Both the position numbers and the translations under genes were made by a program. From the NCBI GenBank assembly GCA_030626795.1, contig DAOUTI010000005.1:1-34342 (forward strand): a stretch of 34,342 nt of DNA, in the 5' to 3' direction. The notes under the pieces are model-generated. The model made no database searches. It was not told the DNA's origin and saw nothing but the letters and a program-made list of their open reading frames with translations. Below are positions 1,045-32,806 of the stretch, one piece after another (the first letter of the stretch is position 1; every line of letters begins with the position of its first letter). This DNA comes from Flavobacteriaceae bacterium. Lineage in GTDB: Bacteria; Bacteroidota; Bacteroidia; Flavobacteriales; Flavobacteriaceae.

Positions 1045-2811
1045 TTATATAGAATCTTTTGCACTGGTTATGGTCAATCCATTTTCATCAATTTTTACTT
1101 CTGCTTTTATATTATTATCATCTTGCACCTCAATATGAACTCCTCTTTTGTCAATTTTCATATTAAATGAATCAGAGTCATTATTACTACTACTAAACTC
1201 ATACCCTTCACAATCTAAACATGTAAGCCCACTTTCAGTCATTTTAAAATAATGTTTTGCCATATCTCTATCGTAAATATTTTGTGTATTATCTACATCG
1301 TATAAAAATGACCTTGTTGTTTTATCTAAATAAATTGTTTTATTTTTGGGTATATACAAATCTATATATATTTTTTGTTCCCTAAATTTATTTTTTACAT
1401 CTGCTAAAAAATAGCCATCTAAACGCAGTTCATCTTCAAACAATTGAAAATCATAACCAATTGTTTCGGCATTTTCTCTTGCTTCCGTTCTACTTCTTCC
1501 TTGAGATTTTTTTCTTGTTTTTACATAAACCTGATCATTATCAGACGTATATACATTCAACCTAATATTATTAGAATAAATTTTCTCGACATTATTTTCA
1601 TCAAAAACCGTACTATAACCCCAACCTCGTTTTAATTCGCTATGGTTTGAAAAGTTTTTATTATCTACCAATTTAATCTTTAATGTATCATTTGAAATGA
1701 CACTAATTTCTTGATTACTAGTAACTGTACCATCATAAGCAGATTGCATAAATTGTTTTGTTCCGAAGAAGATAGCAAATAATAATGCAACCAACCAAAC
1801 ACCAAAAAGTGATAATTTTGCTACTTTACCTATAGATTTGGAATTGTTAGATAATATTCGTAAACCCAATGAAAATAAAAAGAAAAACGGAATTCCAACC
1901 AGTATAAATGTTAATACAGAAATCATCCAAATGGGTAAACCCGAATTATTATAAGCCATTGTATTTTGATAAAACCAATCTTCTTGAATAAAATCTAAAG
2001 AACCTACAGTAAACATACCTATAAGTAAGCTTATAATAGTAACCACAGATATGATAATTAATATCACCCCAATAAATTTACCAATCACCATAAAAATAGC
2101 AGTAAAGATTTTACCCAAAGTCTCTACCATATCTTGTGAACCAGATTTGGCTTTATCTCTATATTTTGTATAATCAGCACTCTTTACTTTATCGCTTACT
2201 TCATTGATACCGTTTTTTACTCTTTCAGAAGCATCAGTAAGTTCGTCTTTAATTTTTTTTTCAATATTACTAATATTCACATCTTCACCTTCCATTTCTA
2301 GCTTCTCGGCAGTAGTATTTGCCTGCGGTAATAAGATCCAAAGTATAGGATAAACAATAAAGCCAAATCCAAAACCGAAAGCAGCTACTAACCATGCCAA
2401 ACGAATCCAAATAACATCTGCATTAAAATAATGTGCAATACCTGATGATACTCCTCCTAAAAACTTATCGTTTCCATCACGGTACAATTTTTTATTATTT
2501 GATCTTTGATGTGTTTGGTAATCATTATCACTAAACACCTCATCATCAACCATATAATCCTCTGGCTTTCCCATTACCTCAACAACTTCATCAATATCAT
2601 TTTCATTAATAACCTGGCGAATATCTTTAACTTTTTCTGATAAAAGTTCACCTATTCTAGATTCAATATCAGTAATTATTTCATCTCTCCCTTTTGGATC
2701 ATCGCTCAATGAACGACGAATTGCGTCTAAATACTTTTTTAGCTTTTGATAAGCCATTTCATCGATATGAAAAAATACTCCGCCTAGATTTATATTTATT
2801 GTCTTGTTCAT
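1045..2811 (-). CDS. PspC-domain multi-pass membrane protein
   Basis: The 588-residue product has a cytoplasmic N-terminal segment (about 1-105) rich in charged helices, then a PspC domain (about 108-165) with the typical LGGVSSGIAHYF and a following membrane helix pair. More membrane helices lie near residues 230-270, 293-320 and 333-352. The C-terminal third (about 360-588) has a beta-strand-rich, toastrack-like composition and is probably periplasmic. PspC domains belong to phage-shock-type membrane stress responses; this long architecture is common in Bacteroidota and lacks a demonstrated function. Its ATG overlaps the stop of the upstream PadR gene by 4 bases, so the two are translationally coupled and PadR probably controls the unit. 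Confidence 0.88.
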   Translation of the reverse strand: MNKTININLGGVFFHIDEMAYQKLKKYLDAIRRSLSDDPKGRDEIITDIESRIGELLSEKVKDIRQVINENDIDEVVEVMGKPEDYMVDDEVFSDNDYQTHQRSNNKKLYRDGNDKFLGGVSSGIAHYFNADVIWIRLAWLVAAFGFGFGFIVYPILWILLPQANTTAEKLEMEGEDVNISNIEKKIKDELTDASERVKNGINEVSDKVKSADYTKYRDKAKSGSQDMVETLGKIFTAIFMVIGKFIGVILIIISVVTIISLLIGMFTVGSLDFIQEDWFYQNTMAYNNSGLPIWMISVLTFILVGIPFFFLFSLGLRILSNNSKSIGKVAKLSLFGVWLVALLFAIFFGTKQFMQSAYDGTVTSNQEISVISNDTLKIKLVDNKNFSNHSELKRGWGYSTVFDENNVEKIYSNNIRLNVYTSDNDQVYVKTRKKSQGRSRTEARENAETIGYDFQLFEDELRLDGYFLADVKNKFREQKIYIDLYIPKNKTIYLDKTTRSFLYDVDNTQNIYDRDMAKHYFKMTESGLTCLDCEGYEFSSSNNDSDSFNMKIDKRGVHIEVQDDNNIKAEVKIDENGLTITSAKDSI

Positions 2812-3155
2812 TTTTTTGTTGATTTTGTAGTTGTTTTTGTAATTAAATTCACTGCCTTAACCAAATCACTCCATGTTGTATTTAATTCGGTTAAAAAGAG
2901 TTTACCTGTTTCGGTTAAACCGTAATATTTTCTCGGTGGTCCAGATGTAGATTCCTCCCATCGATATTTTAAAAGTCCGGCATTTTTCAACCTTGTTAAC
3001 AAAGGATAAACTGTTCCTTCAACAACAAGCATTTTAGCATCTTTTAATTGCGATAGAATTTCGGAAGTATATGCATCACCATTTTGTAAAATGGATAATA
3101 TGCAAAACTCTAATACTCCTTTTCGCATTTGTGCCTTTGTGTTTTCTATTTTCAT
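2808..3155 (-). CDS. PadR-family transcriptional regulator
   Basis: This 115-residue protein is a compact winged-helix PadR regulator. Residues 9-90 carry the family pattern (RKGVLEFCILSILQ, then EGTVYPLLTRLKNAGLL, then GPPRKYYGLTETGK), where the wing and the YPLLTRL recognition helix are visible. The C-terminal helix (about 92-112) would form the dimer interface of the short PadR subfamily. PadR proteins are usually ligand-responsive repressors of adjacent membrane-protein genes. Here the stop overlaps the start of the PspC gene by 4 bases, so the regulator heads the operon and probably represses it. No clear palindromic operator was identified in the 116 bases upstream. Confidence 0.93.
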   Translation of the reverse strand: MKIENTKAQMRKGVLEFCILSILQNGDAYTSEILSQLKDAKMLVVEGTVYPLLTRLKNAGLLKYRWEESTSGPPRKYYGLTETGKLFLTELNTTWSDLVKAVNLITKTTTKSTKK

Positions 3156-3271
3156 ATTATTAATATTATTCTTTTTAATAAATTTTTAAACTATTCATTC
3201 TAAAACAAAAACATTTGAATTGCATTTGCTATGAAAATTACGATTTTAATGAGTATAGTAATCATGATATA

Positions 3272-3667
3272 TTATTTTATAAATTTTATTGTTAAGGGGT
3301 ATTTATAAACTTCGCCTTGATTTGCTTTAATTGCTGCATAAATAATAAGCACAAATTTCACCATTGCTAAAACACCTATTAACGATGCCATACTTATAAT
3401 TCCAAAAAGTGGTAAATGGTGTAATCCTGAAAAAATAGAATGAAAAGCAAATGGTATAATAGACAACCCTAGTACAAATGCGTATAATAAATAACTCAAG
3501 TTAAAATTAACAGCTTCTTTTCCATTTTTATCTAAAAAAATACTTTCTCTTTTTTTTAATTCCCAAAATACCAACGGAGCAATTACTCCTCCAAAAGGAA
3601 ATAAATAACCTGTAAAACTGGATAAATGCATTAAAAATGCGCTGTTATTTTCTGATGTTTTTGTCAT
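3272..3667 (-). CDS. DUF4870 small membrane protein
   Basis: The 131-residue protein has the DUF4870/Tic20-like layout: an N-terminal segment with the helix SSFTGYLFPFGGVIAPLVFW, a charged loop ending in GKEAVNFNLSYLLYAF, two further hydrophobic helices (about 58-80 and 85-115), and a short basic tail. The conserved GxEAVNFN stretch is the hallmark. Function is unknown for the family. It lies 116 bases upstream of padR on the same strand and has its own likely promoter (3697-3728), so it may lead a four-gene envelope unit. DUF4870 genes often neighbour PadR, PspC and DUF2807 genes in flavobacteria, so the grouping looks conserved. Confidence 0.88.
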   Translation of the reverse strand: MTKTSENNSAFLMHLSSFTGYLFPFGGVIAPLVFWELKKRESIFLDKNGKEAVNFNLSYLLYAFVLGLSIIPFAFHSIFSGLHHLPLFGIISMASLIGVLAMVKFVLIIYAAIKANQGEVYKYPLTIKFIK

Positions 3668-4391: not shown

Positions 4392-5087
4392 TTATTTTTC
4401 GTCTTCTTTAATTTTAAGAACAAACTCATTCAATTGAATTCCGTATTTTGATTTTTTAACCTTATCGGATAAACTATTATTTATAGTATCTAATAATTTT
4501 AAAGTCGCATCATTCAATTCCGTTAAAGCGATATAGGGCGCTACTTCAAAATCTGCATTATTTATAGCAAAATTGGTTGTGTATAAATATTTTCTTCGTA
4601 CCAAGTTTTTTAATTTATTTTGTACTAATAAAATCGAATCTTGATTTGCTGATTTTCTTGCTTCAAATTCAGCCTTGATCAAATCTAAATTTTGATCTCT
4701 AAATTTATCTTTTATCACATAATAACTATCTAATAAAGCTTGATTTTTTGAACCAGAAATTTTAGCTTTTAAAACAAATTTATCTAACCTAGATGTAATA
4801 CTAATGGTATCTTTTTCTCCAAAAAATGGAATCTTTTTATTTGAATTATCCAAAGTTAGGTAATACATTTCAGGGGTTATAACCTCATCGGTAAGTAAAA
4901 AATCTTGTGTTCCGTTAACTTTAACAGAATCGATAGATATTACTAAAGAATCAATTTGTTTTTGTAAATAAAGTGTTCCTTTCTTTAACCCCTTGATTGA
5001 TCCTTTTACATACATGGTGTTTTTATTTTCTTCACTACAAGAAACTAATAACAAAACACCCATTACAAAAAACAATACCTTTTTCAT
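4392..5087 (-). CDS. DUF4369-domain lipoprotein
   Basis: The 231-residue product starts with a lipoprotein signal peptide (MKKVLFFVMGVLLLVSC, lipobox LVSC, Cys17). Residues 25-110 fit DUF4369, with the typical opening YVKGSIKGLKKGTLYLQK and FFGEKDTISITSRL. In Bacteroidota this domain often precedes an AhpC/TSA-Redoxin domain (TlpA-like); here the thioredoxin part is absent and a helical, charged C-terminal half (about 115-230) follows instead. It is therefore a DUF4369-only lipoprotein rather than a thiol-disulfide oxidoreductase. No function can be assigned. It stands alone, with a TAnnTTTG element at 5109-5116. Confidence 0.82.
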   Translation of the reverse strand: MKKVLFFVMGVLLLVSCSEENKNTMYVKGSIKGLKKGTLYLQKQIDSLVISIDSVKVNGTQDFLLTDEVITPEMYYLTLDNSNKKIPFFGEKDTISITSRLDKFVLKAKISGSKNQALLDSYYVIKDKFRDQNLDLIKAEFEARKSANQDSILLVQNKLKNLVRRKYLYTTNFAINNADFEVAPYIALTELNDATLKLLDTINNSLSDKVKKSKYGIQLNEFVLKIKEDEK

Positions 5088-5156: not shown

Positions 5157-6470
5157 TTATGGAGATACTGCAACCATCTGCATTAATATAGTACACCCTA
5201 TTGCGGCTATAGTACCTACTGCATAACCAAATACTGCTAATAAAACTCCTACAGTTGCCAATGAAGGGTGAAAAGCAGCTGCAACAATTGGTGCTGAGGC
5301 AGCTCCACCTACATTTGCCTGACTCCCAATTGCTAGATAGAAAAATGGTGCTTTTATAAGTTTGGCTACCAAAATCAATAATAAGGCATGTATTGTCATC
5401 CAAACGGCACCAATGGCCACCAAACCAATATTATCAAAAATCAATCTAAGATCCATTTTCATTCCAATGGAAGCAACTAATATATATATAAAAACAGATC
5501 CTATTTTACTCGCACCAGCACCTTCATAATTTTTAGCCTTAGTAAATGAAAGAGCTATTGCAATAATTGTAGATAGACTAATCATCCAAAAGAAGGAAGA
5601 ACTTAAAAAGGTGAAAACATTTTTAGTAGTTTGGTTTTCTAATCCGTTAACAAAATCAGTAAAAAATGTACTTAAATAACCAGAAGCTAAATGCGCAAAA
5701 CTTACCGTACCAAAAGCAATGGCTATTATAATCATATAATCCGTTAAAGTAGGTATTCGTTCTACTTTTTTTGCATAAGTTGATACTTTTTCTTTAAGCT
5801 CATCAATTGCAGATGTATCTGCTTTTAACCATTTGTCTATTATCTTTGATTTACCGACCCCAATCAATATTATTGCCATCCAAATATTTGCAATAACAAT
5901 ATCGACAAATACCATTCCGCCATAAAGTTTTTGGTTGTAACCATAAATTTCTAACATTGCTGTTTGGTTTGCTCCTCCTCCTATCCAACTTCCTGCCAAG
6001 GTAGAAAGACCTCTCCATACAGCATCTGGCCCTGCCCCTCCTACTGTTTCGGGTGAAACCATTGAAATTAACATAATGGCTATAGGTCCTCCTATTATAA
6101 TACCTATGGTTCCTGTAAAAAACATAGCTAGTGCTTTCCAACCCAAGTTGAATACAGCTTTTATATCTATACTAAGCGTCATCAATACCAATGCCGCTGG
6201 CAATAAATATCGACTTGACATAAAATATAAATTTGAAGAATGTTCAATAATTTCACCAGTTTCAGAAGTGGTTTCCCAATCAGGAGCTATTAAACCTAAG
6301 GTTGTAAATAAAGCTGGCACCATATATGCCATAAATAATCCTGGAACAATACTGTAGAATTTATGCCAAAATCCTTTTTTTATAGATGAGGTATAAAAAA
6401 TAAATCCTAATGAAAGCATTAACAATCCAAAAACAATGGTGTCATTTGTAAATATTGGTTGGTTTCCCAT
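5157..6470 (-). CDS. DUF819 family integral membrane protein
   Basis: From the ATG at 6470 the product has 437 residues with about 11-12 hydrophobic helices and matches the DUF819 (YjcL-like) family. Conserved features include GTIGIIIGGPIAIML, the GSWIGGGANQTAM segment, and the near-symmetric C-terminal ANVGGAASAPIVAAAF, all glycine-rich re-entrant-like motifs seen in transporters with an inverted repeat. The substrate is unknown. A GTG at 6512 would add 14 residues, but the ATG gives the normal family N-terminus, so I chose it. The gene is monocistronic and convergent with nothing; a TAnnTTTG element lies at 6532-6539. Confidence 0.88.
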   Translation of the reverse strand: MGNQPIFTNDTIVFGLLMLSLGFIFYTSSIKKGFWHKFYSIVPGLFMAYMVPALFTTLGLIAPDWETTSETGEIIEHSSNLYFMSSRYLLPAALVLMTLSIDIKAVFNLGWKALAMFFTGTIGIIIGGPIAIMLISMVSPETVGGAGPDAVWRGLSTLAGSWIGGGANQTAMLEIYGYNQKLYGGMVFVDIVIANIWMAIILIGVGKSKIIDKWLKADTSAIDELKEKVSTYAKKVERIPTLTDYMIIIAIAFGTVSFAHLASGYLSTFFTDFVNGLENQTTKNVFTFLSSSFFWMISLSTIIAIALSFTKAKNYEGAGASKIGSVFIYILVASIGMKMDLRLIFDNIGLVAIGAVWMTIHALLLILVAKLIKAPFFYLAIGSQANVGGAASAPIVAAAFHPSLATVGVLLAVFGYAVGTIAAIGCTILMQMVAVSP

Positions 6471-6770
6471 AATAAAATAATTTTGCTGGCTAATGTACCA
6501 AAAAAATAACACCTATGACTTGGAGTTTTAACAAAAGTAAGACAGGAAACACTGTTGTCCGGTAAAGATATAAAAGACCGCTACGCTTTTAGAAAAAAGA
6601 ACAAAGACTTGTATGTAACTAACCGACAATCTTATAGGTAATTATTTAAAGGTTTTACATTATGTTTTTTTATACAATATGCAAAAAGCAAGGTGTACTA
6701 TTTCTAAAACGCTTTAAACATAACAATAACAAAGTATTTAATAATTTTACTCGGACACTACTAGATGCTT
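6471..6770. other. 300-base intergenic gap
   Basis: No open frame worth calling was found here. The right half contains neither a clear terminator for the kinase gene ending at 6771 nor a repeat I can define. The left part carries the candidate promoter of the DUF819 gene (TACTTTTG on the minus strand at 6532-6539). A slightly GC-richer stretch near 6560-6600 (GACCGCTACGCTTTT) stands out from the AT-rich background but has no recognisable identity. Confidence 0.5.
6532..6539 (-). promoter_or_regulatory. Candidate -7 element of the DUF819 gene
   Basis: The minus strand reads TACTTTTG, fitting TAnnTTTG, about 62 bases before the ATG at 6470. No -33 TTG is seen at the expected spacing. Confidence 0.35.
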
Positions 6771-7817
6771 TTAAACTAATTTATTCAAAATTATTGATTT
6801 CATATAATCTTGATTATCTAAAGCTAGTTGGGCAAAAGTAAATAGGCTAAGACAACGGTCTAAATTTTGATTTTCATAAGAAACTTTATAATATTTATTA
6901 TTTTCAAGATAATCGGTTAGCGCTCTAATACCATGTAAAAAAGGCAACAAAACAACCCCTAATGATAAATATTCAAGCTCTTTAGGATTGAAGAAGTCTT
7001 TATGTTTAGACAGTCCTTCAACAAAAGATTCAAACAGTGCATTGGTGAAATTAATTTTAGATAGGTCTTTTTCATCTTCTGCAGCAGTATTGGCAATTGT
7101 TCTTACAGCATCGCCAAAATCATATAAAAAAGTGCCTTTCATAATTGTATCTAAATCAATTAAGCAGAGTGCTTTATTGCTTTTTGAAAACAAAATATTA
7201 TTCAATTTAGTATCATTATGACAAACTCGAACAGGCAAATCATCAACCTTAATATGGAGAAGTGTTTTTATGTGAGTATTTACAAAATCAATAGCTTTTT
7301 GCGAATTTTTAATCGTATCAAGTTTTGCATTAACCAACGCCTCTTTAAATTGTTGGTATCTAAATGACACGTTGTGAAAATCAGGCAAAGTATCTTCTAA
7401 TAATTCTGCATCAAAGTTGTTTAAAATTGTATGGAATAAACCAATTATTTTTCCTGCTTCAAATGCTATTTCAGGATTTGTAGTTGTATTAAAAGTCAAG
7501 CTGTTTTTAATAAAAGTCATTAAACGCCAAACATGATTTGATTCTGTTTTAATGAATGATTTTCCAAGTGCAGTTTTAACCAATGTAACACTTTGATAAT
7601 GTTTACCTTTTAGCAATGGTAAAACTAAATCTAAATTATGAATTAGCGAATCTACATTTGTAAAGACATCATTATTAATACGTTGCAAAATGTATTCAGG
7701 AGCCCCATTGGCAGAAACCATATAGGTATCATTAATAAATCCATTAGAAATGACATCAAATTTATATTTTGATTTCGGGATTTTAAATTGACCTAAAATT
7801 TTATTTAAATCTTCCAT
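6771..7817 (-). CDS. APH-fold sugar kinase, NahK-like (N-acetylhexosamine 1-kinase type)
   Basis: The 348-residue protein has the aminoglycoside-phosphotransferase/choline-kinase fold. The catalytic loop is VCHNDTKLNNILF (His200, Asp202, Asn207) and the metal-binding motif is CLIDLDT (Asp221/Asp223). The HNDTKLNN and IDLDT forms, plus the N-terminal SNGFINDTY loop, resemble Bifidobacterium NahK more than antibiotic kinases. NahK phosphorylates C1 of GlcNAc or GalNAc. Its start overlaps the stop of the upstream nucleotidyltransferase by 13 bases, so the two are translationally coupled. Together they would make an NDP-sugar from a free sugar: kinase gives the sugar 1-phosphate, transferase adds the nucleotide. 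The kinase fold is clear; the sugar is inferred. Confidence 0.8.
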   Translation of the reverse strand: MEDLNKILGQFKIPKSKYKFDVISNGFINDTYMVSANGAPEYILQRINNDVFTNVDSLIHNLDLVLPLLKGKHYQSVTLVKTALGKSFIKTESNHVWRLMTFIKNSLTFNTTTNPEIAFEAGKIIGLFHTILNNFDAELLEDTLPDFHNVSFRYQQFKEALVNAKLDTIKNSQKAIDFVNTHIKTLLHIKVDDLPVRVCHNDTKLNNILFSKSNKALCLIDLDTIMKGTFLYDFGDAVRTIANTAAEDEKDLSKINFTNALFESFVEGLSKHKDFFNPKELEYLSLGVVLLPFLHGIRALTDYLENNKYYKVSYENQNLDRCLSLFTFAQLALDNQDYMKSIILNKLV

Positions 7818-8692
7818 AATGGCGTAGGATATTCTTTAAGGTTAGTCTTGTTTTTTAATAATCTTACTGCATTTGTTTTATCATCAGCATAAGTAATACC
7901 AAACCATGAAGATGCTGAATCTGTAAGTTTTACAGTTGATTTTTTTGAATCAATCAAATTTTTAATTACTAGCGGAATGTAAATTTCACCCTTTTTAATA
8001 TGCGTTTCTCTTGCAAGAAAAACTTTTAAATCTTTTTCTATTTGATCAAAAATCAAAGGGTTAAAGATCCAAAAATTCATGGATGTAGGCTCATCACCAG
8101 TTAAATTTGTTTTTGAATCTATATCCATAATTACTTGATCATCCATTTTAATTTTAGTGAGTTCTTCTATACTCAATAACAAATTATTTTGCACTTTACA
8201 AATCCCTCTTGATACCGAACCAAATTTTGATAAAGTATTTTTTAGATGATAAGGCACTAAACCATAAGTGTTTTTTGATGTATTATTATTTATAAATTCA
8301 GCTGCTTTTTTGAAAGCATATTTTCCGTAATAATCATCCGCATTTATCACAACAAAATTATTATTAATCAAATTCTTTGCTACCCAAACTGCATGTGCTG
8401 TGCCCCAGGGTTTTTCTCTTTTAAAATCAATATTTATACCTCTTGGAAGGTCATCCACTTTTTGAGCAATAACATCAATTGTAATGTTTTGAGCTAACCT
8501 TTTTAATAAATAATCTTTAATGGTTTTAACAAACTGTTCTTTAGTAATAATTACAATATGATTAAACCCCTGTAAAATAGCATCATAAATACTAAACTCA
8601 AACAAAAACTCTTTATTCGGTCCTAATTCATCAAATTGTTTTAATGCTCCATATCTACTGCCATTACCTGCAGCCATGATTAATAATGTCAT
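7805..8692 (-). CDS. Sugar-phosphate nucleotidyltransferase (GT-A-like)
   Basis: The 295-residue product begins directly with the nucleotide-binding signature MAAGNGSRYGALKQF (residues 6-20), a variant of the GxGxRxxxxTxxxPK loop of sugar-phosphate nucleotidyltransferases, here with Lys18 and the unusual tail DELGPN. A metal-binding acidic motif, VINADDYYG, is at about 115-123. It has no left-handed beta-helix, so it is not a GlmU-type bifunctional enzyme. It probably transfers UMP, GMP or dTMP to a sugar 1-phosphate made by the downstream NahK-like kinase, with which it overlaps by 13 bases. Which nucleotide is used cannot be read from the sequence. Confidence 0.8.
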   Translation of the reverse strand: MTLLIMAAGNGSRYGALKQFDELGPNKEFLFEFSIYDAILQGFNHIVIITKEQFVKTIKDYLLKRLAQNITIDVIAQKVDDLPRGINIDFKREKPWGTAHAVWVAKNLINNNFVVINADDYYGKYAFKKAAEFINNNTSKNTYGLVPYHLKNTLSKFGSVSRGICKVQNNLLLSIEELTKIKMDDQVIMDIDSKTNLTGDEPTSMNFWIFNPLIFDQIEKDLKVFLARETHIKKGEIYIPLVIKNLIDSKKSTVKLTDSASSWFGITYADDKTNAVRLLKNKTNLKEYPTPLWKI

Positions 8693-9839: not shown

Positions 9840-11969
9840 ATGAAATACTTTAAAATAATACTTTTATTTATCACCTTACAATTGACTGCCCAACAAGGAG
9901 GCATGTGGATTCCTTCTCTTTTAGAAGGCATGAACGAAACCGAAATGCATAATCTTGGCAGCAACCTATCTGCCAAAGATATTTACGATGTAAATAATTC
10001 CAGTTTAAAAGATGCTATTATACATTTTAATGGAGGATGTACTGGTGAAATTATTTCAAACCAAGGTCTAATTTTAACCAATCACCATTGTGGCTACGGT
10101 GCAATTCAATCTCATTCTTCAGTTGAACATGACTATTTAAAAGATGGTTTTTGGGCAATGAAAGAAACCGAAGAACTATCCAATCCCGGTATGTTTGTTA
10201 CCTTTATTAACAGAATAGATGATGTTACCAATACCGTTTTAAATGGTGTTACAAGTGCATTATCCGAAAAGGAAAAACAATCAAAAATTGATCAAAATAT
10301 CGCACAAATCAAAAAAAATGTAAAAAAAGAAGATTGGCAAGGCGTAATTATAAAACCGATGTATAAAGGAAATCAATACCTCCTTTATGTTACCGAAACA
10401 TTTAATGATATACGATTGGTTGGAGCTCCTCCATCATCTATTGGTAAATTTGGATCTGACACTGATAATTGGATGTGGCCTCGCCATACTGGTGATTTTT
10501 CACTTTTCAGAATTTATGCTGACAAAAACAACAAACCTGCAACATATAACAAAGATAATGTGCCATACCAACCCAAGCACTTTTTACCAGTTTCATTAGA
10601 TGGCGTATCTGAAAACGATTTTACATTAGTTTTTGGTTTTCCTGGAAGAACCAATGAGTATTTACCTGCCGTTGCAATTGATCAAATTGTGCATAAAGAA
10701 AATCCTGCAAAAATAGAAGTAAGAGACGAAGCACTAAAAATAGTTGATAAATATATGCGTGCTGATGAAAAAATTAAAATTCAATATGCCTCAAAATATG
10801 CTCGAATTGCCAATTATTGGAAAAAATGGATTGGAGAAAATCAAGGAATAGAAAAATCAAATGCCATAGCAAACAAAGAAAAATTAGAAAAATCTTTTCA
10901 AGAAAAAATTAAAAATAATAAGCAATACAATCGATTGTTAAGCGATTTTGACAAACTTTATAAAGAAATTGATAGTGCTACACTTGCTCGTGCTTATTGG
11001 TCGGAAGTTGTTTACCGTAATATTGAATTGCTTAATGCAACAGTAAAATTATACCAATTTGAAAATAAAATAATAAAAGACCCTAGCTCTTTTGAAAAAG
11101 AACGAACAAAGCTTTTAAAAAAATCTGCCTCTTTTTATAAAAATTACAATGCTACGGTAGATCAAGATGTTTTTGAAAAATTGATGTCTTTATACAAAGA
11201 TAAAATGCCAACTGCCTATTTATCTAACACAGTAAAAACTGCAAATATTGGCGAGTTAACTAAAGAAGTGTATCACAATTCTAGGTTAGTAAATTATACA
11301 AGTTTTCAAGATTTGATGTCGGGTTCGCAAGAAGAAGTGATAAAAAAAATAAATGCAGATAAAGGGTATGTTTTAGGTAAAGAACTTTCTAATGATTATT
11401 TCAAAAAAATAAATCCTAAATTTAATGAGATCAATATTCAAATTCAAGCTGTTCAAAAAACTTATATGAAAGCTTTGATTGAAACTTTTCCTGATGAAAG
11501 ATTTTTTCCTGATGCGAATAGCACTTTACGTGTAACCTATGGTAAAGTTAATGGTTATGCACCAAAAGACGCAGTTTACTATAAACCTGTTTCGTATTTA
11601 AATGGTGTTATGGAAAAATACAAACCAGGCGATTACGAATTTGATGTTCCCCAAAAATTAATTGATTTATACCAAAATAAAGACTTTGGTGATTATGGTG
11701 AAAATGGTAAAATGCCTGTTAATTTTATTGGTACAAATCATACTACTGGAGGAAATTCGGGTAGCCCAGTAATTGATGCTCATGGTAATTTAATTGGTTT
11801 AAATTTTGATCGTGTTTGGGAAGGTACTATGAGTGATTATAATTATGATCCAGCCATTTGTAGAAACATTATGGTTGATGCTCGATACATTTTATTTATT
11901 ATTGATAAATACGCTGGTGCGGAAAGGATTATCAATGAAATGAAATTGGTTCACCCAAAAAAGAAATAA
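9840..11969 (+). CDS. S46 dipeptidyl-peptidase, DPP11-like (Asp/Glu-specific)
   Basis: The 709-residue exported serine peptidase carries a signal peptide (cleavage near LTAQ) and the S46 N-terminus GGMWIPSLL. The chymotrypsin-like triad is visible: His in LTNHHCGYG (82/83), Asp219 in PRHTGDFS, Ser640 in GGNSGSPV. A helical cap domain (about 290-560) interrupts the fold, as in DPP7 and DPP11. Eighteen residues after the catalytic Ser is Arg658 (LNFDR); the equivalent Porphyromonas position is Arg673 in DPP11, which selects Asp/Glu at P1, but Gly in DPP7. I therefore predict release of N-terminal dipeptides ending in Asp or Glu in the periplasm, for use as nutrients. Length fits the family (about 700-720). 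Confidence 0.93.
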   Translation: MKYFKIILLFITLQLTAQQGGMWIPSLLEGMNETEMHNLGSNLSAKDIYDVNNSSLKDAIIHFNGGCTGEIISNQGLILTNHHCGYGAIQSHSSVEHDYLKDGFWAMKETEELSNPGMFVTFINRIDDVTNTVLNGVTSALSEKEKQSKIDQNIAQIKKNVKKEDWQGVIIKPMYKGNQYLLYVTETFNDIRLVGAPPSSIGKFGSDTDNWMWPRHTGDFSLFRIYADKNNKPATYNKDNVPYQPKHFLPVSLDGVSENDFTLVFGFPGRTNEYLPAVAIDQIVHKENPAKIEVRDEALKIVDKYMRADEKIKIQYASKYARIANYWKKWIGENQGIEKSNAIANKEKLEKSFQEKIKNNKQYNRLLSDFDKLYKEIDSATLARAYWSEVVYRNIELLNATVKLYQFENKIIKDPSSFEKERTKLLKKSASFYKNYNATVDQDVFEKLMSLYKDKMPTAYLSNTVKTANIGELTKEVYHNSRLVNYTSFQDLMSGSQEEVIKKINADKGYVLGKELSNDYFKKINPKFNEINIQIQAVQKTYMKALIETFPDERFFPDANSTLRVTYGKVNGYAPKDAVYYKPVSYLNGVMEKYKPGDYEFDVPQKLIDLYQNKDFGDYGENGKMPVNFIGTNHTTGGNSGSPVIDAHGNLIGLNFDRVWEGTMSDYNYDPAICRNIMVDARYILFIIDKYAGAERIINEMKLVHPKKK

Positions 11970-14213: not shown

Positions 14214-15269
14214 ATGAAAACAAACAACTACTTGAAAAAAAAATCAAAAACCAAGTTAAACTTATTTTTAATTCTATTTTGTACACTTATTACCTTTACA
14301 GGACTCTCTCAAGAAGATGAAAAGGAAAAAAAAGGGAAATTCAAATTTAGTGGAAGTGCTGATGCCTATTTTAGACAAAACATTTCTGGGCCAAACGGAG
14401 AGGACGCCATCTCTCCTAACACTTCATTTGCTAATCAAAATGGTTTTGCTATCGGTATGGCAAATGCCATTTTATCCTATGAAGGAGAAAAAGTTGGGGC
14501 GGTAATAGACCTTGTTTTTGGACCAAGAGGTGCAGATGCTGTTTTCGAATCAAATCCGAGTGCAAATATAATCAACCAACTATATGTATATTGGAATGTG
14601 TCTGACAAAGTTACCTTAACATTTGGTAATTTTAATACTTTTTTAGGCTATGAAGTTATTTCACCTGTAGGTAATTTTAACTACAGCACATCCTATATGT
14701 TTTCATACGGACCATTTTCTCACACAGGATTAAAAATGGATTATGCTATTACCGACGACTGGTCAATGTTGTTAGCCGTTATGAACGATAATGATTTAAC
14801 TGAGTTTAACCCTACTAACAATTATACGTTAGGAGCACAAATCGGCTACAAAGGAACTTACCTTAACTTCTTGTACGGACCACAATTCCAAATAGATCTT
14901 ACTACAGGATTTGATCTTAGCAATAATTTCTATTTAGGCGCTAATGCTACTTATTATGATGACGATAATGGAAGTTTCTATGGAGTTGCATTATATCCTC
15001 AATATCAATTATCAGATTCTTTTAAACTTGGTTTGCGTGGAGAATATTTCGCTGAAACCAATGAAGGAGTTGGCGCCATTGGCGAATATGATGATGGAGA
15101 AGCAAACGTGTTTGATCTAACCTTAACCGGAAATTATAGCATTGGCAATCTAATGCTTATCCCTGAATTGAGAATAGACTCTGCTAGTGAAAATACATTC
15201 ATAGACAACAATATGGATGCCTCAAAATCTTTAAGCTCCTTCTTATTAGCAGCAGTATATAACTTTTAA
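14214..15269 (+). CDS. Outer-membrane porin (BBP2-like) of the ammonium operon
   Basis: The 351-residue protein has a basic N-terminus and signal peptide (cleavage near TGLSQ), then an acidic-lysine linker and a beta-barrel. Strands such as KFKFSGSADAYFRQN, LYVYWNVSDKVTLTFGNFNT and a closing SFLLAAVYNF, with the terminal Phe expected by the Bam machinery, are visible. The arrangement (paired strands around GNFNTFLGYEVI and HTGLKMDYAITDDWSMLLAV) fits the putative BBP2 porin family. It lies only 11 bases before the PII gene and is cotranscribed with amtB, so it probably lets ammonium or a small nitrogen compound cross the outer membrane. That substrate is inferred from context. Confidence 0.82.
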   Translation: MKTNNYLKKKSKTKLNLFLILFCTLITFTGLSQEDEKEKKGKFKFSGSADAYFRQNISGPNGEDAISPNTSFANQNGFAIGMANAILSYEGEKVGAVIDLVFGPRGADAVFESNPSANIINQLYVYWNVSDKVTLTFGNFNTFLGYEVISPVGNFNYSTSYMFSYGPFSHTGLKMDYAITDDWSMLLAVMNDNDLTEFNPTNNYTLGAQIGYKGTYLNFLYGPQFQIDLTTGFDLSNNFYLGANATYYDDDNGSFYGVALYPQYQLSDSFKLGLRGEYFAETNEGVGAIGEYDDGEANVFDLTLTGNYSIGNLMLIPELRIDSASENTFIDNNMDASKSLSSFLLAAVYNF

Positions 15270-15280
15270 AATAATAAACC

Positions 15281-15619
15281 ATGAAAAAAATAGAAGCAAT
15301 TATTAGAAAATCAAGATACTCAGCAGTAAAAAAAGCCCTACACGAAGCCGGAGTAAATTTCTTTACCTATTGGGATGTTACCGGAATAGGCCATGAAAAA
15401 CAAGGACATGTTTATAGAGGCGTAGCTTTTAGCACTAGCGATATTCAACGCCGATACATATCAATTGTTGTAAATGATGATTTTATACAACCTACTATTG
15501 ACGCTATAATGGATGCTGCTAAAACTGGTGATGTTGGTGATGGTAAAATATTTGTTTCCGATATATCGGAAGCCTACAGAATTAGAACTGGAAACAAAGG
15601 TGGAGAAACTTTAAAATAA
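15281..15619 (+). CDS. glnK: PII family nitrogen-regulatory protein (GlnK type)
   Basis: The 112-residue protein spans the PII fold: MKKIEAIIRKSRY at the start, a B-loop TGDVGDGKIF (82-91) and a C-loop RIRTGNKG (102-107 region), which bind ATP/ADP and 2-oxoglutarate. PII trimers of the GlnK type plug AmtB when nitrogen is plentiful. The T-loop reads GHEKQGHVYRGVAF: Tyr45 corresponds to E. coli Tyr46, but the uridylylated Tyr51 position is Phe50, so modification by GlnD is not possible at that site. It lies between the porin gene (11 bases) and amtB (21 bases), which strongly supports the GlnK assignment. Confidence 0.95.
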   Translation: MKKIEAIIRKSRYSAVKKALHEAGVNFFTYWDVTGIGHEKQGHVYRGVAFSTSDIQRRYISIVVNDDFIQPTIDAIMDAAKTGDVGDGKIFVSDISEAYRIRTGNKGGETLK

Positions 15620-15640
15620 ACTAAAAAAATCAAAATAATT

Positions 15641-16861
15641 ATGGAAATGTTTACTATAAATAATGTGTGGATGATGATATCAATTTTCTTGGTATTTATC
15701 ATGCATCTTGGATTCGGAACTTTAGAATCAGGATTAACTAGATCAAAAAATACAATTAATATCCTTTTTAAAAATGTGATGATAGTTTCAATCGGACTGT
15801 TAACCTACACTTTTATTGGATTTAACCTTATGTACCCAGGTGCTGAATTTGCTGGCGAATTTTTCGGATTTGCAGGATTTGGATTGACCTTACCTGAAAA
15901 TGGTTTGACCCCTGAATATAGTGAAGGATACACATACTGGACCGACTTTTTATTCCAAGCCATGTTTGCAGCAACTGCTGCAACCATAGTATCAGGTGCC
16001 GTTGCCGAAAGAATTAAACTAAATGCATTTTTAATTTTCTCAGTAATCTATGTAGGTTTGGTTTATCCTATTGTAGGTATGTGGAAATGGGGTGGCGGAT
16101 TTTTGGATGCTTTAGGCTTCTACGATTTTGCAGGATCAACATTAGTACACTCAGTTGGAGGATGGGCTGCTTTAATTGCCGTTATTTTATTAGGCCCACG
16201 TATTGGTAAATACAACGGCGGAGCAAAAGCCATTGAAGGCCATAATATTCCTCTAGCTTTTGTCGGCGTATTTTTACTTTGGTTTGGGTGGTTCGGTTTT
16301 AATGGCGGTTCGGTTTTAAGTGCTGATGCCGGAACAGTTTCATTAGTTTTAGTTACCACTTGTTTGGCAGCTGCCGCAGGAGCAATAAGTGCATTTTTTA
16401 CTTCTTATGCTCTCTTTAAGTCTTATGATATCACTATGGTTTTAAACGGTATTTTAGCTGGATTAGTTGGTATTACCGCTGGAGCGGATTTAATGAGCCC
16501 TACAGATGCTATCTTAATTGGATTGATTGCTGGTGTAATTATCGTATTGGCAGTAACCGCCTTAGATAAATTAAAATTGGATGACCCTGTTGGAGCCATT
16601 GCAGTGCATTTAATTTGTGGTATTTGGGGAACTTTAGCTGTTGGTATATTTGGATCTAAAGCAAGTTTAGAACAATTAGGTAGTCAATTTATTGGAGTTT
16701 TAGCCGTTGGTGCTTTTTGTGTAATCGCCTCGTTTATAATTTTATTTACATTGAAAAAGACCATTGGAATAAGAGTTTCTGAAAAAGAAGAAATTGAAGG
16801 CTTAGATCTACATGAACATGGTATGAGCGCCTACCCAGATTTTAGAATGAACGAGCATTAA
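15641..16861 (+). CDS. amtB: Ammonium transporter AmtB
   Basis: The 406-residue integral membrane protein has 11 predicted helices. Family signatures are visible: FQAMFAATAATIVSGAVAER (about 105-124), and DFAGSTLVHSVGG (162-174) with Asp162 and the first pore His170; the second pore His323 is in AVHLICGIWG. These twin His line the conduction path of Amt proteins, where NH4+ is deprotonated and moved across the inner membrane. The protein has no signal peptide of the cleaved E. coli type. It is last in the porin-glnK-amtB operon, whose products would act at the outer membrane, in the cytoplasm and in the inner membrane. Two hairpins follow it. Confidence 0.97.
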   Translation: MEMFTINNVWMMISIFLVFIMHLGFGTLESGLTRSKNTINILFKNVMIVSIGLLTYTFIGFNLMYPGAEFAGEFFGFAGFGLTLPENGLTPEYSEGYTYWTDFLFQAMFAATAATIVSGAVAERIKLNAFLIFSVIYVGLVYPIVGMWKWGGGFLDALGFYDFAGSTLVHSVGGWAALIAVILLGPRIGKYNGGAKAIEGHNIPLAFVGVFLLWFGWFGFNGGSVLSADAGTVSLVLVTTCLAAAAGAISAFFTSYALFKSYDITMVLNGILAGLVGITAGADLMSPTDAILIGLIAGVIIVLAVTALDKLKLDDPVGAIAVHLICGIWGTLAVGIFGSKASLEQLGSQFIGVLAVGAFCVIASFIILFTLKKTIGIRVSEKEEIEGLDLHEHGMSAYPDFRMNEH

Positions 16862-25122: not shown

Positions 25123-25428
25123 ATGGATAAATTAAAACAACGCTGGGGGCTATCTTCAAATTGGCAAGTATTAGCAATTATTATTGTTTTTACCCTTAAT
25201 GGCTCTTTTGCTACATGGGTAGCGAAACCAGTTACTGAATTTTTTGGGTTAAGTTCAGAAACTACAAACCCATATATTTTATACTTAACATTAAGAATAT
25301 TACTTATTTTTCCTATTTACCAAATTACCTTACCAATTGTTGGATGGTTTTTTGGACAATTTAAATTCTTTTGGGAGTTTGAAAAAAAAATGTTAAGAAG
25401 ACTTGGATTAGGTAGGTTTGTTGATTAA
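25123..25428 (+). CDS. DUF6787 family small membrane protein
   Basis: The 101-residue protein begins MDKLKQRWGLSSNWQVLAII, the family pattern, and has two or three hydrophobic helices (about 15-35 and 48-80) ending in an amphipathic FFWEFEKKMLRRLGL. Proteins of this type are common in Bacteroidota and have no known function. Its TAA overlaps the TAA of the convergent orf84 in a shared TTAA at 25425-25428, so both stop codons lie on the same four bases. No terminator separates the two, and transcripts would run into one another. Confidence 0.75.
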   Translation: MDKLKQRWGLSSNWQVLAIIIVFTLNGSFATWVAKPVTEFFGLSSETTNPYILYLTLRILLIFPIYQITLPIVGWFFGQFKFFWEFEKKMLRRLGLGRFVD

Positions 25429-25689: not shown

Positions 25690-26241
25690 TCACGTTTTAT
25701 CCCAATCATTATTAGCTCTAATCCTTTTATAAAGTTTTATACCTAACATTAAAAGTACAGAAATCAACACAATTCCTAACACTCCAAAAATCCAGTTAAT
25801 AGCGTTTTTCAACACTACTAAAAATACAACGGCAAATAAGATTATGGTGGCAACTTCATTCCAAATACGTAATTTAAATGAAGATATTTTTATTGAACCA
25901 TTTATCATTTGGTTTAAAATAACATGACAAGACCAGTGGTAAGCATACAAAGCCACAACAAACAACAATTTAATAATCATCCATTTTTGGGTTAAAAATG
26001 ATGGATTAATAAACAACATCCAATATGCAAATATACTTGCTAAAATTGCAGATGGCCATGTAATAATATACCATAATCTTTTACTCATTAACGCATACTG
26101 ATTTTGTAAAATTGACTTAGCAGGTTCTTCTTTTTCTTCAGCTTCTTTAAAATAAATAAAAAGTCTAATGATATAAAATAAGCCTGCAAACCAAGTGGTT
26201 ACAAAAATAATATGTAAAGATTTTATATATAAATAATCCAT
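25690..26241 (-). CDS. hemJ: Protoporphyrinogen IX oxidase HemJ
   Basis: The 183-residue membrane protein has four or five helices and matches HemJ (UPF0093), often annotated as CopD family in this phylum. The first helix carries SLHIIFVTTWFAGLFYIIRLF with conserved His10 and Arg26, and a later helix carries WMIIKLLFVVALYAYHWSCH with Trp88-region, Lys91 and His102. The His residues would bind heme b. The enzyme oxidises protoporphyrinogen IX to protoporphyrin IX in many bacteria lacking HemG and HemY. Its position 6 bases after hemH, the ferrochelatase that uses its product, strongly supports this role over a copper-resistance annotation. Confidence 0.88.
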   Translation of the reverse strand: MDYLYIKSLHIIFVTTWFAGLFYIIRLFIYFKEAEEKEEPAKSILQNQYALMSKRLWYIITWPSAILASIFAYWMLFINPSFLTQKWMIIKLLFVVALYAYHWSCHVILNQMINGSIKISSFKLRIWNEVATIILFAVVFLVVLKNAINWIFGVLGIVLISVLLMLGIKLYKRIRANNDWDKT

Positions 26242-26247
26242 AACAAA

Positions 26248-27282
26248 TTAATTTTTCAATCCTATTTTCTCCCAGTTTTTAACCCATTTACTCAAAGCAT
26301 CAACCCATTCTTTACTATCATTCATGCAAGGTATATGCTTAAATTCAACACCTCCTGCATTTAAAAATTCCTTTCCCCCTTCCATTGCAATTTCTTCTAA
26401 GGTCTCTAAGCAGTCTGCTACAAAAGCTGGAGTAATTACAGCCAAATTTTTTACGCCTTGTTTAGGTAATTTTACCAATTCAAAATCAGTATATGGTTTT
26501 AACCAAGGGTCTTTTAACATACGTGACTGGAACGAATTACTGTACATACCTTCTTTTAAACCTAATTCTTTAGCTATTAATTTAGTTGTTTCAAAACACT
26601 GGTGTCTATAACAAGTTTTATGTGCAACAGATAGTTTGTTACAACAAGTTCCATCTATTTTACAATGTGAGTTAGTTGGGTCTGATTTTATAATATGTCG
26701 CTCTGGTAAACCATGATAGGAAAATAAAATATGATCATAATCAAATTCATTCAAGTGATTTTTAATATTTTTAACCATCGCCTGGATATAATCAACATCA
26801 TTATAAAACGCAGGAAGCACATCTAAATGCATATTTGAAAAATCATTTTTTATTACCTCTTCAACTTTTACCACTACAGTTTCAGTTGAAGACATAGCAT
26901 AATGTGGATAAAGAGGTATTAATAAAATATGATCAACACCTTGACTATTTAATTCTTGTATCGCTCTTTTTATACTCATCGAACCATATCGCATTCCTAA
27001 AGCAACAGGGATTTCTATTTTCTGAACTACTTTTTCTTTAAATTTTTCTGAAAAAACAATCAAAGGCGAACCATCTTTTGTCCATATTTTTTTATAAGCT
27101 TTCGCCGATTTTTTTGGACGTGTATTTAATATAATACCTTTAATTAATAAAAAACGTTTCCAATACGGAATATCGATAACTCTTTCATCCATTAAAAACT
27201 CATCTAAATATTTTCTAACATCCTTAATTTCAGGGGTTTTAGGTGACCCCAAATTAATTAACAATAGTCCTTTTTTTCCCAA
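26248..27282 (-). CDS. hemH: Ferrochelatase HemH, TTG start, Cys-rich insertion
   Basis: The 344-residue enzyme inserts Fe2+ into protoporphyrin IX, the last heme step. Landmarks are LLLINLGSPKTPEI at the start, SYHGLPERH with active-site His190, the YSNSFQSRML segment, and FVADCLETLEEI with catalytic Glu293. Between 206 and 229 is an insertion with Cys207, Cys213, Cys214, Cys224 and Cys229, absent from E. coli HemH and possibly metal- or cluster-binding. The N-terminal strand is encoded from a TTG at 27282: no in-frame ATG exists before it, and an in-frame TAA lies five codons upstream, so TTG is the likely start. The gene leads a unit with hemJ (6-base gap) and orf84, divergent from hemA. 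Confidence 0.95.
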   Translation of the reverse strand: MGKKGLLLINLGSPKTPEIKDVRKYLDEFLMDERVIDIPYWKRFLLIKGIILNTRPKKSAKAYKKIWTKDGSPLIVFSEKFKEKVVQKIEIPVALGMRYGSMSIKRAIQELNSQGVDHILLIPLYPHYAMSSTETVVVKVEEVIKNDFSNMHLDVLPAFYNDVDYIQAMVKNIKNHLNEFDYDHILFSYHGLPERHIIKSDPTNSHCKIDGTCCNKLSVAHKTCYRHQCFETTKLIAKELGLKEGMYSNSFQSRMLKDPWLKPYTDFELVKLPKQGVKNLAVITPAFVADCLETLEEIAMEGGKEFLNAGGVEFKHIPCMNDSKEWVDALSKWVKNWEKIGLKN

Positions 27283-27313
27283 TTGTAATTCGATTTAATG
27301 AATAAAATAATTT

Positions 27314-27336
27314 CAAATATAAAGAATGCAAATATA
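27314..27336 (-). promoter_or_regulatory. Two tandem candidate -7 elements before hemH
   Basis: On the minus strand TATATTTG occurs twice, at 27321-27314 and 27336-27329, both exact TAnnTTTG matches and 15 bases apart. The inner one would start transcription about 25 bases before the hemH TTG at 27282. Confidence 0.5.
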
Positions 27337-27568
27337 ATCTTTTTAATTTTTAGCCTATCAAATATCACTTTTATTTAATGAATAAAATATAATTTTTTAT
27401 CGTTATTTTTTTTATTTTTTATGATATTATTTAAATATCTATCCATCTATTTTTGCTAAAATAAAATGATTTATTTGTTTTATCAATATTTGTTAAAAAA
27501 TACTTTGATTACATAGAATAAATATTAAAAAGACAATCTCATCTGTTTTTGTGATAAATATCATCTTA

Positions 27569-27594
27569 TTGAAATTCTTTATTCTTTATTTTTG
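27569..27594 (+). promoter_or_regulatory. Candidate promoter of the hemA operon
   Basis: TTG (27569-27571) and TATTTTTG (27587-27594) are separated by 15 bases, slightly shorter than usual. The leader to the ATG at 27650 would be about 50 bases. Confidence 0.45.
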
Positions 27595-27649
27595 CAACTA
27601 ATGTTACATTATAAATGTTTTAAAATAATTTTAATTGATAAAGTTGAAA

Positions 27650-28891
27650 ATGATTAAAAATATAGATAATAAAAAGTTTTATGTAATTGGATTAAATTAT
27701 AAAAAAGCTGATGTTAAAACTAGAAGTAATTTCAGTCTAAGCATAGAAAAACAGAAACAATTATTACATGAAGCCAAAGCTTTTAACATTAAAAGTTTGA
27801 TTATTCTTTCTACTTGTAACCGAATTGAAATAATAGGTTTTGCAAATCATCCTTTTGAGTTAATCTCCTTATTATGCAAGTTTTCAAATGGAACCGTTGA
27901 AGAGTTTGCAAAAGTATCTTATGTTCATAAGAATAGTGATGCTGCCGAACATATTATAAGAATTGCTACAGGTATTGAAAGTCAAATATTGGGAGATTAT
28001 GAAATTGTTGGTCAATTAAAAGTTGCTTTTCAAATAGCTAAAAAAGAAGGAACAATTAACGCTTATTTAGAAAGGTTGTTTAACGTAGCATTACAAGCTA
28101 GTAAAGAAACCAAAAACAAAACATCATTAAGTTCAGGAACAACAACTGTTTCATATGCTGCAATTCAATATATCAAAGGTGCTATAAAAAATTATAACGA
28201 CAAAAAAATATTAATTTATGGGCTTGGCAATATTGGTGACAGCACAGCAAAAAGCAGTGTTAAATATTTAAATAGTAAAAACATAACGGTTATTAATCGC
28301 ACTGATAATATAGCAATTACATTATCTAATACCATAGCTTTAAAAGCTGCACCTCATAAAAACTTAAAGAAAGAAGTTCAACTAGCAGATATCATAATTG
28401 TAGCAACTGGAGCCTCTAGCCCTACAGTTATTTTAGATCATTTTGATACTGAAAAAAAACAATTGATTATCGATTTATCAATTCCTAGAAATGTAGATAG
28501 AAGCATTGAAGCGCTAAAAAATAAAACTATAATTGATGTTGATATGCTGTCTAAAAAAACTAAAGAAACACTTGAAATTAGAAAAAAACAAATTCCTTTA
28601 GCAGAAAAAATCATCAAAAAACATAAAGCAGAATTTTATGAATGGTTAGATTTTAGACGAAGTACACCTGCAATAAATGTTTTTAAAAAATCATTAGAAA
28701 ATATACAAAAAGATGCCATATTTTTGCACGCAAAGAAACATCAAGATTTTAATATCGACCATGCCGAAGAAGTAACATCTTTAATTGTGAATAAAATCGT
28801 TTCCAAATTTGTAATGCATTTAAAGGAAGATAACTCACAAGCCAATCAAAGTATTCAAATGATGAAACAAATATTTAAGGTAGAGGTCTAA
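27650..28891 (+). CDS. hemA: Glutamyl-tRNA reductase HemA
   Basis: From the ATG at 27650 the protein has 413 residues, the usual family length; a TTG at 27635 would add five. Residues 1-150 form the catalytic domain with Cys56 in LSTCNRIE, the thiolate that attacks glutamyl-tRNA, and the SQILGDYEIVGQ segment. Residues 170-300 form the NADPH domain with IYGLGNIGDSTAKS, and the C-terminal part is the helical dimerisation domain. It makes glutamate-1-semialdehyde, the first committed step of the C5 route. It leads the plus-strand heme operon; hemCD follows after 10 bases. Its product feeds HemL, encoded in the same operon. Confidence 0.97.
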   Translation: MIKNIDNKKFYVIGLNYKKADVKTRSNFSLSIEKQKQLLHEAKAFNIKSLIILSTCNRIEIIGFANHPFELISLLCKFSNGTVEEFAKVSYVHKNSDAAEHIIRIATGIESQILGDYEIVGQLKVAFQIAKKEGTINAYLERLFNVALQASKETKNKTSLSSGTTTVSYAAIQYIKGAIKNYNDKKILIYGLGNIGDSTAKSSVKYLNSKNITVINRTDNIAITLSNTIALKAAPHKNLKKEVQLADIIIVATGASSPTVILDHFDTEKKQLIIDLSIPRNVDRSIEALKNKTIIDVDMLSKKTKETLEIRKKQIPLAEKIIKKHKAEFYEWLDFRRSTPAINVFKKSLENIQKDAIFLHAKKHQDFNIDHAEEVTSLIVNKIVSKFVMHLKEDNSQANQSIQMMKQIFKVEV

Positions 28892-28901
28892 AAGTAATTA
28901 C

Positions 28902-30491: not shown

Positions 30492-30505
30492 CAACATACA
30501 ATATT

Positions 30506-31471: not shown

Positions 31472-31473
31472 TC

Positions 31474-31490
31474 TTTCCGTTTAACGGAAA
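31474..31490. promoter_or_regulatory. Perfect palindrome between hemB and hemL
   Basis: TTTCCGTT (31474-31481) and AACGGAAA (31483-31490) are perfectly inverted around a single T. It starts 2 bases after the hemB stop and ends 15 bases before the hemL ATG at 31506. As RNA it would form a short hairpin near the ribosome-binding region of hemL; as DNA it is a typical dimer-binding site. No U-tract follows, so it is not a terminator. Confidence 0.5.
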
Positions 31491-31505
31491 TTGATAATAC
31501 TGAAA

Positions 31506-32804: not shown

Positions 32805-32806
32805 AC

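Follow-up and report, generated by a model that had tools for sequence, protein, structure and literature searches.

In Bacteroides thetaiotaomicron, GalNAc is phosphorylated by BT4240, a kinase 39% identical to NahK of Bifidobacterium longum and encoded in a gene cluster that also holds a GH109 enzyme (PMC11992087). According to the parts of that report covered here, BT4240 is a 1-kinase that prefers GalNAc over GlcNAc about 275-fold; for GlcNAc, phosphorylation at O1 was demonstrated, and for GalNAc it was argued. The enzyme is essential for growth on GalNAc and is needed for about half of the growth on chondroitin sulphate, and GalNAc kinase matters to the competitive growth of B. thetaiotaomicron on mucin (PMC11992087). 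The phosphorylation is said to serve “downstream metabolism”; in the parts covered the fate of GalNAc-1-P is not named, and the terms “nucleotidyltransferase”, “UDP-GalNAc” and “epimerase” give no match in the main text (PMC11992087). Nor is a bacterial transferase partner for a GalNAc kinase named in the portion of the open-licence PMC literature searched.

Other described systems also invite comparison. First, B. longum NahK (LnpB; structures 4wh1 and 4ocj) belongs to the LNB/GNB pathway. Second, AmgK and MurU act by the same kinase-then-nucleotidyltransferase logic as the pair described below, and Tannerella is said, in the parts of the source covered, to make UDP-MurNAc through them (PMC7670621). 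Third, a pair like LicA and LicC would yield an activated choline or amino-alcohol compound.

The window analysed here, the whole of a 34,342-nucleotide stretch of DNA from a Flavobacteriaceae bacterium (GCA_030626795.1, contig DAOUTI010000005.1), carries a nucleotidyltransferase gene that overlaps a kinase gene (Table 1). We consider it probable that the pair is a two-gene GalNAc salvage unit, which would convert GalNAc to GalNAc-1-P and then to UDP-GalNAc. This reading draws on homology, fold, conserved catalytic residues, gene coupling and co-occurrence; from these we infer GalNAc as the substrate, UTP as the nucleotide and the direction of flow.

Table 1. The gene pair and its downstream neighbours in the window
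Feature	Coordinates	Strand	Remarks
Sugar-1-phosphate nucleotidyltransferase, 3PNN-like	7805..8692	-	295 aa; first gene of the pair; proposed UTP:GalNAc-1-P uridylyltransferase
NahK-like N-acetylhexosamine 1-kinase	6771..7817	-	348 aa; second gene of the pair; proposed GalNAc 1-kinase
Overlap of transferase and kinase reading frames	7805..7817	-	13 nt
DUF819 membrane protein	5157..6512	-	keeps this downstream place in close relatives only; may be an importer; alignment with homologues starts at window residue 15 (MGNQP)
DUF4369 protein	4392..5087	-	follows DUF819 in the same close relatives

Identity of the two predicted enzymes

The preliminary description had reported a 13-base overlap and a motif in each protein, and all of this was borne out: the reading frames share 7805-7817, HNDTKLNN occupies kinase residues 200-207, and GNGSRYGALKQF occupies transferase residues 9-20. 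Transcription runs through the transferase (8692..7805) before the kinase (7817..6771), and translational coupling of the two is likely given the overlap of their frames.

Pfam assigns the kinase to APH (62.8 bits) and, weakly, to Choline_kinase (31.7 bits against a cut-off of 29). The second match is what favours a LicA-LicC-like pair, but sequence and fold both lead elsewhere. In a single-sequence search of solved structures NahK 4wh1 was closest (E 3.5e-63, 35% identity), and NahK chains were the sole sequence matches at E ≤ 0.001; a profile of 11 relatives reached NahK at 1.3e-79, again with NahK chains alone at E ≤ 0.01. The AlphaFold model (pLDDT 89.6) fits NahK with bound GlcNAc (4ocj) at a TM of 0.91, whereas the second-best fold, homoserine kinase, reaches 0.68 and choline kinases about 0.5-0.6. 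A choline or amino-alcohol product is accordingly improbable in the extreme. By whole-length homology and modelled fold, the window kinase is a NahK-type N-acetylhexosamine 1-kinase. It shares with BT4240 the description of a NahK-like APH kinase from Bacteroidota, a comparison made by description and not by sequence, and on the BT4240 side from the parts of the report covered.

Most of the residues checked agree with this assignment. With NahK numbering counted from the kinase-4wh1 alignment, D208, N213 and D228, which we take to be catalytic or Mg residues, and R306 and Y317, which we place on the sugar side, are conserved in the window kinase as D202, N207, D221, R298 and Y309. NahK and the window kinase thus have the catalytic and most of the checked sugar-site residues in common. 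The difference is at His31, presumably another sugar-site residue of NahK, whose position is Phe27 in the window kinase. Given that His31 is absent throughout the window's clade, the sugar specificity of the kinase may differ from that of NahK.

The transferase matches NTP_transferase in Pfam (41.2 bits). Among solved structures 3pnn is closest (E 8.4e-66, 39% identity), and a profile of 16 relatives found 3pnn first and then GalU-type UTP-glucose-1-phosphate uridylyltransferases (best E 1.5e-9), which would make UTP the likeliest nucleotide. The model (pLDDT 91.1) fits 3pnn over the whole protein with a TM of 0.91, and its fold also fits RmlA, GalU and inositol-1-P CTP transferase. Residues G9, G11, S12, R13, Y14, G15, K18 and D119-D120 are invariant in all 16 relatives; we take them to be the N-terminal nucleotide loop and metal aspartate of a GT-A sugar-1-phosphate nucleotidyltransferase. 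The 3PNN protein itself comes from Porphyromonas gingivalis W83, where it is labelled “conserved domain protein” or “glycosyltransferase”; its structure entry text gives no tested function, and none of the papers found to mention 3PNN concerns such proteins by title. The 3PNN-type transferase is the best candidate for the step from GalNAc-1-P to UDP-GalNAc. The earlier proposal of a salvage route in two steps, leading from free sugar to NDP-sugar, finds support as a reading of the pair, with both activities predicted.

The same two-step logic would also suit peptidoglycan recycling in the manner of AmgK-MurU, with MurNAc passing through MurNAc-1-P to UDP-MurNAc. The example of Tannerella counts in its favour, and so does the count of APH proteins: two were found in the window's genome (83.5% complete), and the other one lacks an adjoining NTP_transferase. 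Against it, when solved structures were searched by sequence and by profile, the kinase matched NahK alone and the transferase matched 3PNN, GalU, GlmU and inositol types; no chain labelled AmgK or MurU was among the hits. The glycan-related neighbours across related loci are GH109, sulfatases and SSF symporters, with no peptidoglycan-recycling gene among the identified neighbours (many neighbours lack an assignment). We regard the MurNAc route as very unlikely.

Compared with the LNB/GNB pathway, no GH112 phosphorylase, GalT or GalE was seen in the window, and a 3PNN-type transferase stands in their place. It had already been noted that no phosphorylase lies nearby, and neither a sugar-phosphorylase family nor GalT or GalE appeared in 31 of the 33 window ORFs of at least 100 aa (all except 475-792 and 25123-25428, both on the plus strand), which were scanned with Pfam, or with NCBIfam only in the case of 9840-11969. 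The phosphorylase route was set aside because GH112 was found in none of 60 genomes, the window's own included, a weak ground since no control matched either.

Coupling of the genes among relatives and across the phylum

Three overlapping sets of genomes, all of which hold the window's genome or its relatives and some of which share contigs, judged by length, were used to follow the pair: the loci of the best 80 of 305 confirmed kinase relatives in named genomes (the named loci), a set of 60 genomes (the window's and 59 relatives), and an even sample of 198 Bacteroidota genomes that includes the window's. The scan behind the named loci used patterns from the window's own kinase clade and favours it, and their 80/80 adjacency describes that clade; the 198-genome sample is the broader test. 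Related genomes in the co-occurrence counts are not independent samples, although the Fisher values for these counts treat them as such.

In 81/81 loci (the window and the 80 named ones), the ORF immediately before the kinase, on its strand, encodes the transferase, and the two genes overlap by 10, 13 or 16 nt in 36 of these (simple ORF caller). Together with NahK 4wh1 and 3pnn as the closest structures, this constant adjacency upholds the initial description of the locus as a NahK-like kinase coupled to a sugar nucleotidyltransferase. The BT4240 cluster differs here: no transferase is named in it, in the parts of the report covered, whereas transferase and kinase genes are adjacent or overlapping in the window's clade. 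One locus (L049, G010:C247:7960-9000) has a single in-frame TAA in the kinase frame and a late ORF start, through decay or assembly error.

Beyond adjacency, the two genes also keep company at the level of whole genomes. Thirty-one genomes in the 60-genome set have the kinase and all 31 have the transferase, which occurs alone in 6 more (6/37). Across the 198 Bacteroidota genomes, with a transferase threshold of E ≤ 1e-60, the kinase was found in 35, the transferase in 38 and both in 34; ten genomes with weak transferase matches alone (E 1e-9 to 8e-4) were left out, and the kinase is in none of them. Of the 35 kinase genomes, 18 have the two genes on one strand and no more than 60 bp apart, 16 have them further apart or on separate contigs, and in the remaining one (G153) the transferase was not found. 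That the genes occur together even where they are not adjacent is the better indication that one enzyme depends on the other. The transferase stands without the kinase in 4 of 38 genomes (G122, G176, G215 and G246), and in G122 an AA_kinase, not a sugar kinase, follows the transferase gene. The coupling of transferase and kinase genes is not due to chance. Six small genomes (G043, G044, G045, G047, G056 and G057; L139-L144) of the window's order have a 3PNN-type transferase, and no NahK-type kinase was found in them.

Neighbours further along the window vary more. Eight of the 80 named loci, those of the closest relatives, repeat the order pair-DUF819-DUF4369. DUF819 was considered as a specific importer on proximity alone and was rejected, for it occurs in 45 of the 60 genomes, 18 of them among the 29 that lack the kinase; no evidence was found for it as a MurNAc transporter. 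Elsewhere in the window, a beta-barrel porin (BBP2), a P-II protein and an ammonium transporter stand in a row (14214-16861), and the latter two share the fetched stretch with the pair in four loci (L048, L050, L056 and L057). Heme synthesis genes adjoin one another at 25690-33832 (UPF0093, ferrochelatase, glutamyl-tRNA reductase, a 529-aa porphobilinogen deaminase-HemD fusion, ALAD, a class-III aminotransferase and URO-D), and at 1045-3667 a PadR regulator adjoins a PspC/toast-rack membrane protein and a DUF4870 protein, which may together make up a unit for envelope stress.

GH109, kinase clades and the sugar

The choice of sugar turns largely on GH109, the alpha-N-acetylgalactosaminidase family. 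GH109 is present in 33 of the 35 kinase genomes and in 23 of the other 163 in the 198-genome sample, where related genomes are not independent. The 60-genome set gives 24/31 with the kinase vs 2/29 without, and the window's family within that set 23/30 vs 1/7. GH109 might also be a marker of a glycan-degrading lifestyle in general.

Position adds to these counts. In 9 of the 35 kinase genomes (G091, G095, G099, G104, G138, G150, G153, G184 and G207), spanning 6 families (f17, f18, f19, f20, f36 and f44), GH109 lies within 1.3 kb of the kinase or transferase on the same strand, against 0.08 expected by chance in a rough model that assumes a genome size and a copy number. A further GH109, divergent, lies near one of the two genes in G187, and in the other 25 kinase genomes GH109 is more than 1.3 kb from either gene or absent. 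GH109 adjoins the kinase in G091, G138, G153 and G207, with the transferase elsewhere or not found, and adjoins the transferase in G095, with the kinase elsewhere. The three genes form a run, GH109-transferase-kinase, in G099, G104, G150 and G184 and also in the named locus L064; in G104, G150 and G184 an SSF symporter precedes them (recognised by Pfam in two and by BLAST in G184). G091 resembles BT4240-43: its genes for GH109, the kinase and a GH2 beta-galactosidase stand next to one another, and the transferase gene is 4.7 Mb distant.

Among the named loci, GH109 occurs in the flanks (up to 8 kb) of 12 of 80, the other 68 being without it. It is an immediate neighbour in 11 of those 12, within 282 bp or touching, with overlapping genes in L110, and is 6.1 kb from the pair in L120. 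The 11 adjoining copies are divergent in 9 loci; in L064 GH109 comes just before the pair on its strand, with a gap of 13 bp, and in L100 just downstream. The L079 protein was confirmed by Pfam and by a match to alpha-N-acetylgalactosaminidase 2ixa (5.1e-156), and the other 11 were assigned by clustering with it. The BT4240 cluster and some related loci have GH109, whereas the window has none: no GH109, SSF symporter or sulfatase was seen among the window proteins scanned, and no GH109 was found in the 83.5% complete assembly of its own genome or in three more window-type genomes (G003, G018 and G019, 70-77% complete). Its absence from the window's assembly may reflect incompleteness or a real difference. 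Arenibacter latericius KMM 426T is the source of a GH109 alpha-N-acetylgalactosaminidase described in the parts of the study covered (PMC6356649); strain DSM 15913 of that species (L117) has the kinase-transferase pair in a fetched stretch without GH109.

Other neighbours proved less useful as clues to the sugar. A sulfatase lies in the flanks of 23 of the 80 named loci, a count that has no control, and the closest solved matches of the L111 sulfatase have mixed substrates, so sulfatases were dropped as evidence on the substrate. Many of the sulfatase-bearing genera are probably rich in sulfatases anyway. Epimerase matches occur in 31/31 genomes, too commonly to discriminate, and those in the window's genome are weak (best E 6.8e-26).

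A tree of 69 kinases and NahK, which includes 8 kinases picked from the named loci and leaves out that of G153 (missed by the ORF caller), places the window kinase in clade A (25 sequences), 24 of which can be read at the His31 position and have F, L, M or Y there. In the adjacent clade B, His is present in 16/16. Counted across the window and the 80 named loci, this position is Y in 36, L in 22, F in 21 and M in 1, one sequence being truncated. The GH109-linked kinases have Leu there in G091, G138 and G207 and His in G104, G150 and G184, so that the loss of His31 cannot be read simply as a sign of GalNAc use. Within the window's genus (G000-G021, n=22), 11 genomes have an A pair, 11 a B pair and none both, which suggests that A and B pairs fill one role. 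One of these genomes (G017, L147) has, besides its B pair, a second NahK-like kinase that branches next to NahK and lacks an adjoining transferase; a GH109 gene lies about 3.5 kb from it (L147 6799-7908 and 11462-12814).

The neighbours of clade B widen the question. Thirteen clade-B loci hold a LacI-type regulator (6), an MFS transporter (5), a NagB/PIG-L protein (5) or an SDR epimerase (4), families assigned by Pfam in one locus each and by clustering in the remainder. In L031 the epimerase gene overlaps the kinase gene, and its closest solved relatives include WbgU and WbpP, which we take to act on UDP-HexNAc; such an arrangement would be expected for conversion of UDP-GalNAc to UDP-GlcNAc. 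The NagB/PIG-L-like proteins could instead fit the same chemistry with GlcNAc (from chitin or peptidoglycan, for instance) or the two HexNAcs together as the physiological sugar and UDP-GlcNAc as the product. B. longum NahK is similarly active on GlcNAc and GalNAc, as reported in the parts of two sources covered (PMC11992087, PMC8106489), and without His31 the window kinase is of uncertain specificity. However, the recurrent glycosidase neighbour is an alpha-GalNAcase, and the characterised Bacteroides homologue BT4240 prefers GalNAc (PMC11992087, in the parts covered). The window's genome also matches GlmU of the alternative bacterial type (alt_bact_glmU, over cut-off; G000:C227, E 7.3e-138), so UDP-GlcNAc can be made without the pair, and a role for the pair as a GlmU replacement was rejected as unneeded. 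We consider GlcNAc an unlikely physiological sugar, though a less remote one than MurNAc, and GalNAc the likely substrate. The suggestion that the sugar is an algal or cell-wall hexosamine fares unevenly on these data: the cell-wall part is disfavoured, as related loci point to GalNAc released by GH109, and an algal source is neither supported nor opposed.

A proposed route for GalNAc

Under the GalNAc salvage reading, GH109 in relatives would free GalNAc outside the cytoplasm, some of these relatives also having a sodium-solute symporter or sulfatases next to it. Free GalNAc in the cytoplasm would then be phosphorylated at C1 by the NahK-like kinase (ATP + GalNAc giving GalNAc-1-P + ADP), and the transferase would join GalNAc-1-P to a nucleotide, most likely UTP, to give UDP-GalNAc and PPi. 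A 4-epimerase could convert UDP-GalNAc to UDP-GlcNAc.

The kinase is of an already known kind, and the transferase is a good candidate for the step left unnamed in the gut Bacteroides work. A wider proposal, to which we give even chances, is that the 3PNN-type transferase is the missing second GalNAc enzyme across Bacteroidota, gut Bacteroides included, whether beside the NahK-type kinase or far from it, and that the Flavobacteriaceae clade rebuilt the sugar pocket of the kinase, with the loss of His31, around GalNAc. If this is true, GalNAc would pass through UDP-GalNAc by a two-enzyme route analogous to the eukaryotic one, which consists of GalNAc kinase and UDP-HexNAc pyrophosphorylase. GalNAc ranks among the main sugars of mucins and of chondroitin sulphate. 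The near-perfect genomic partner of the kinase offers a single gene with which to test the fate of GalNAc-1-P. The proposal would also give the uncharacterised 3PNN family a function and provide a kinase-transferase pair for making UDP-GalNAc.
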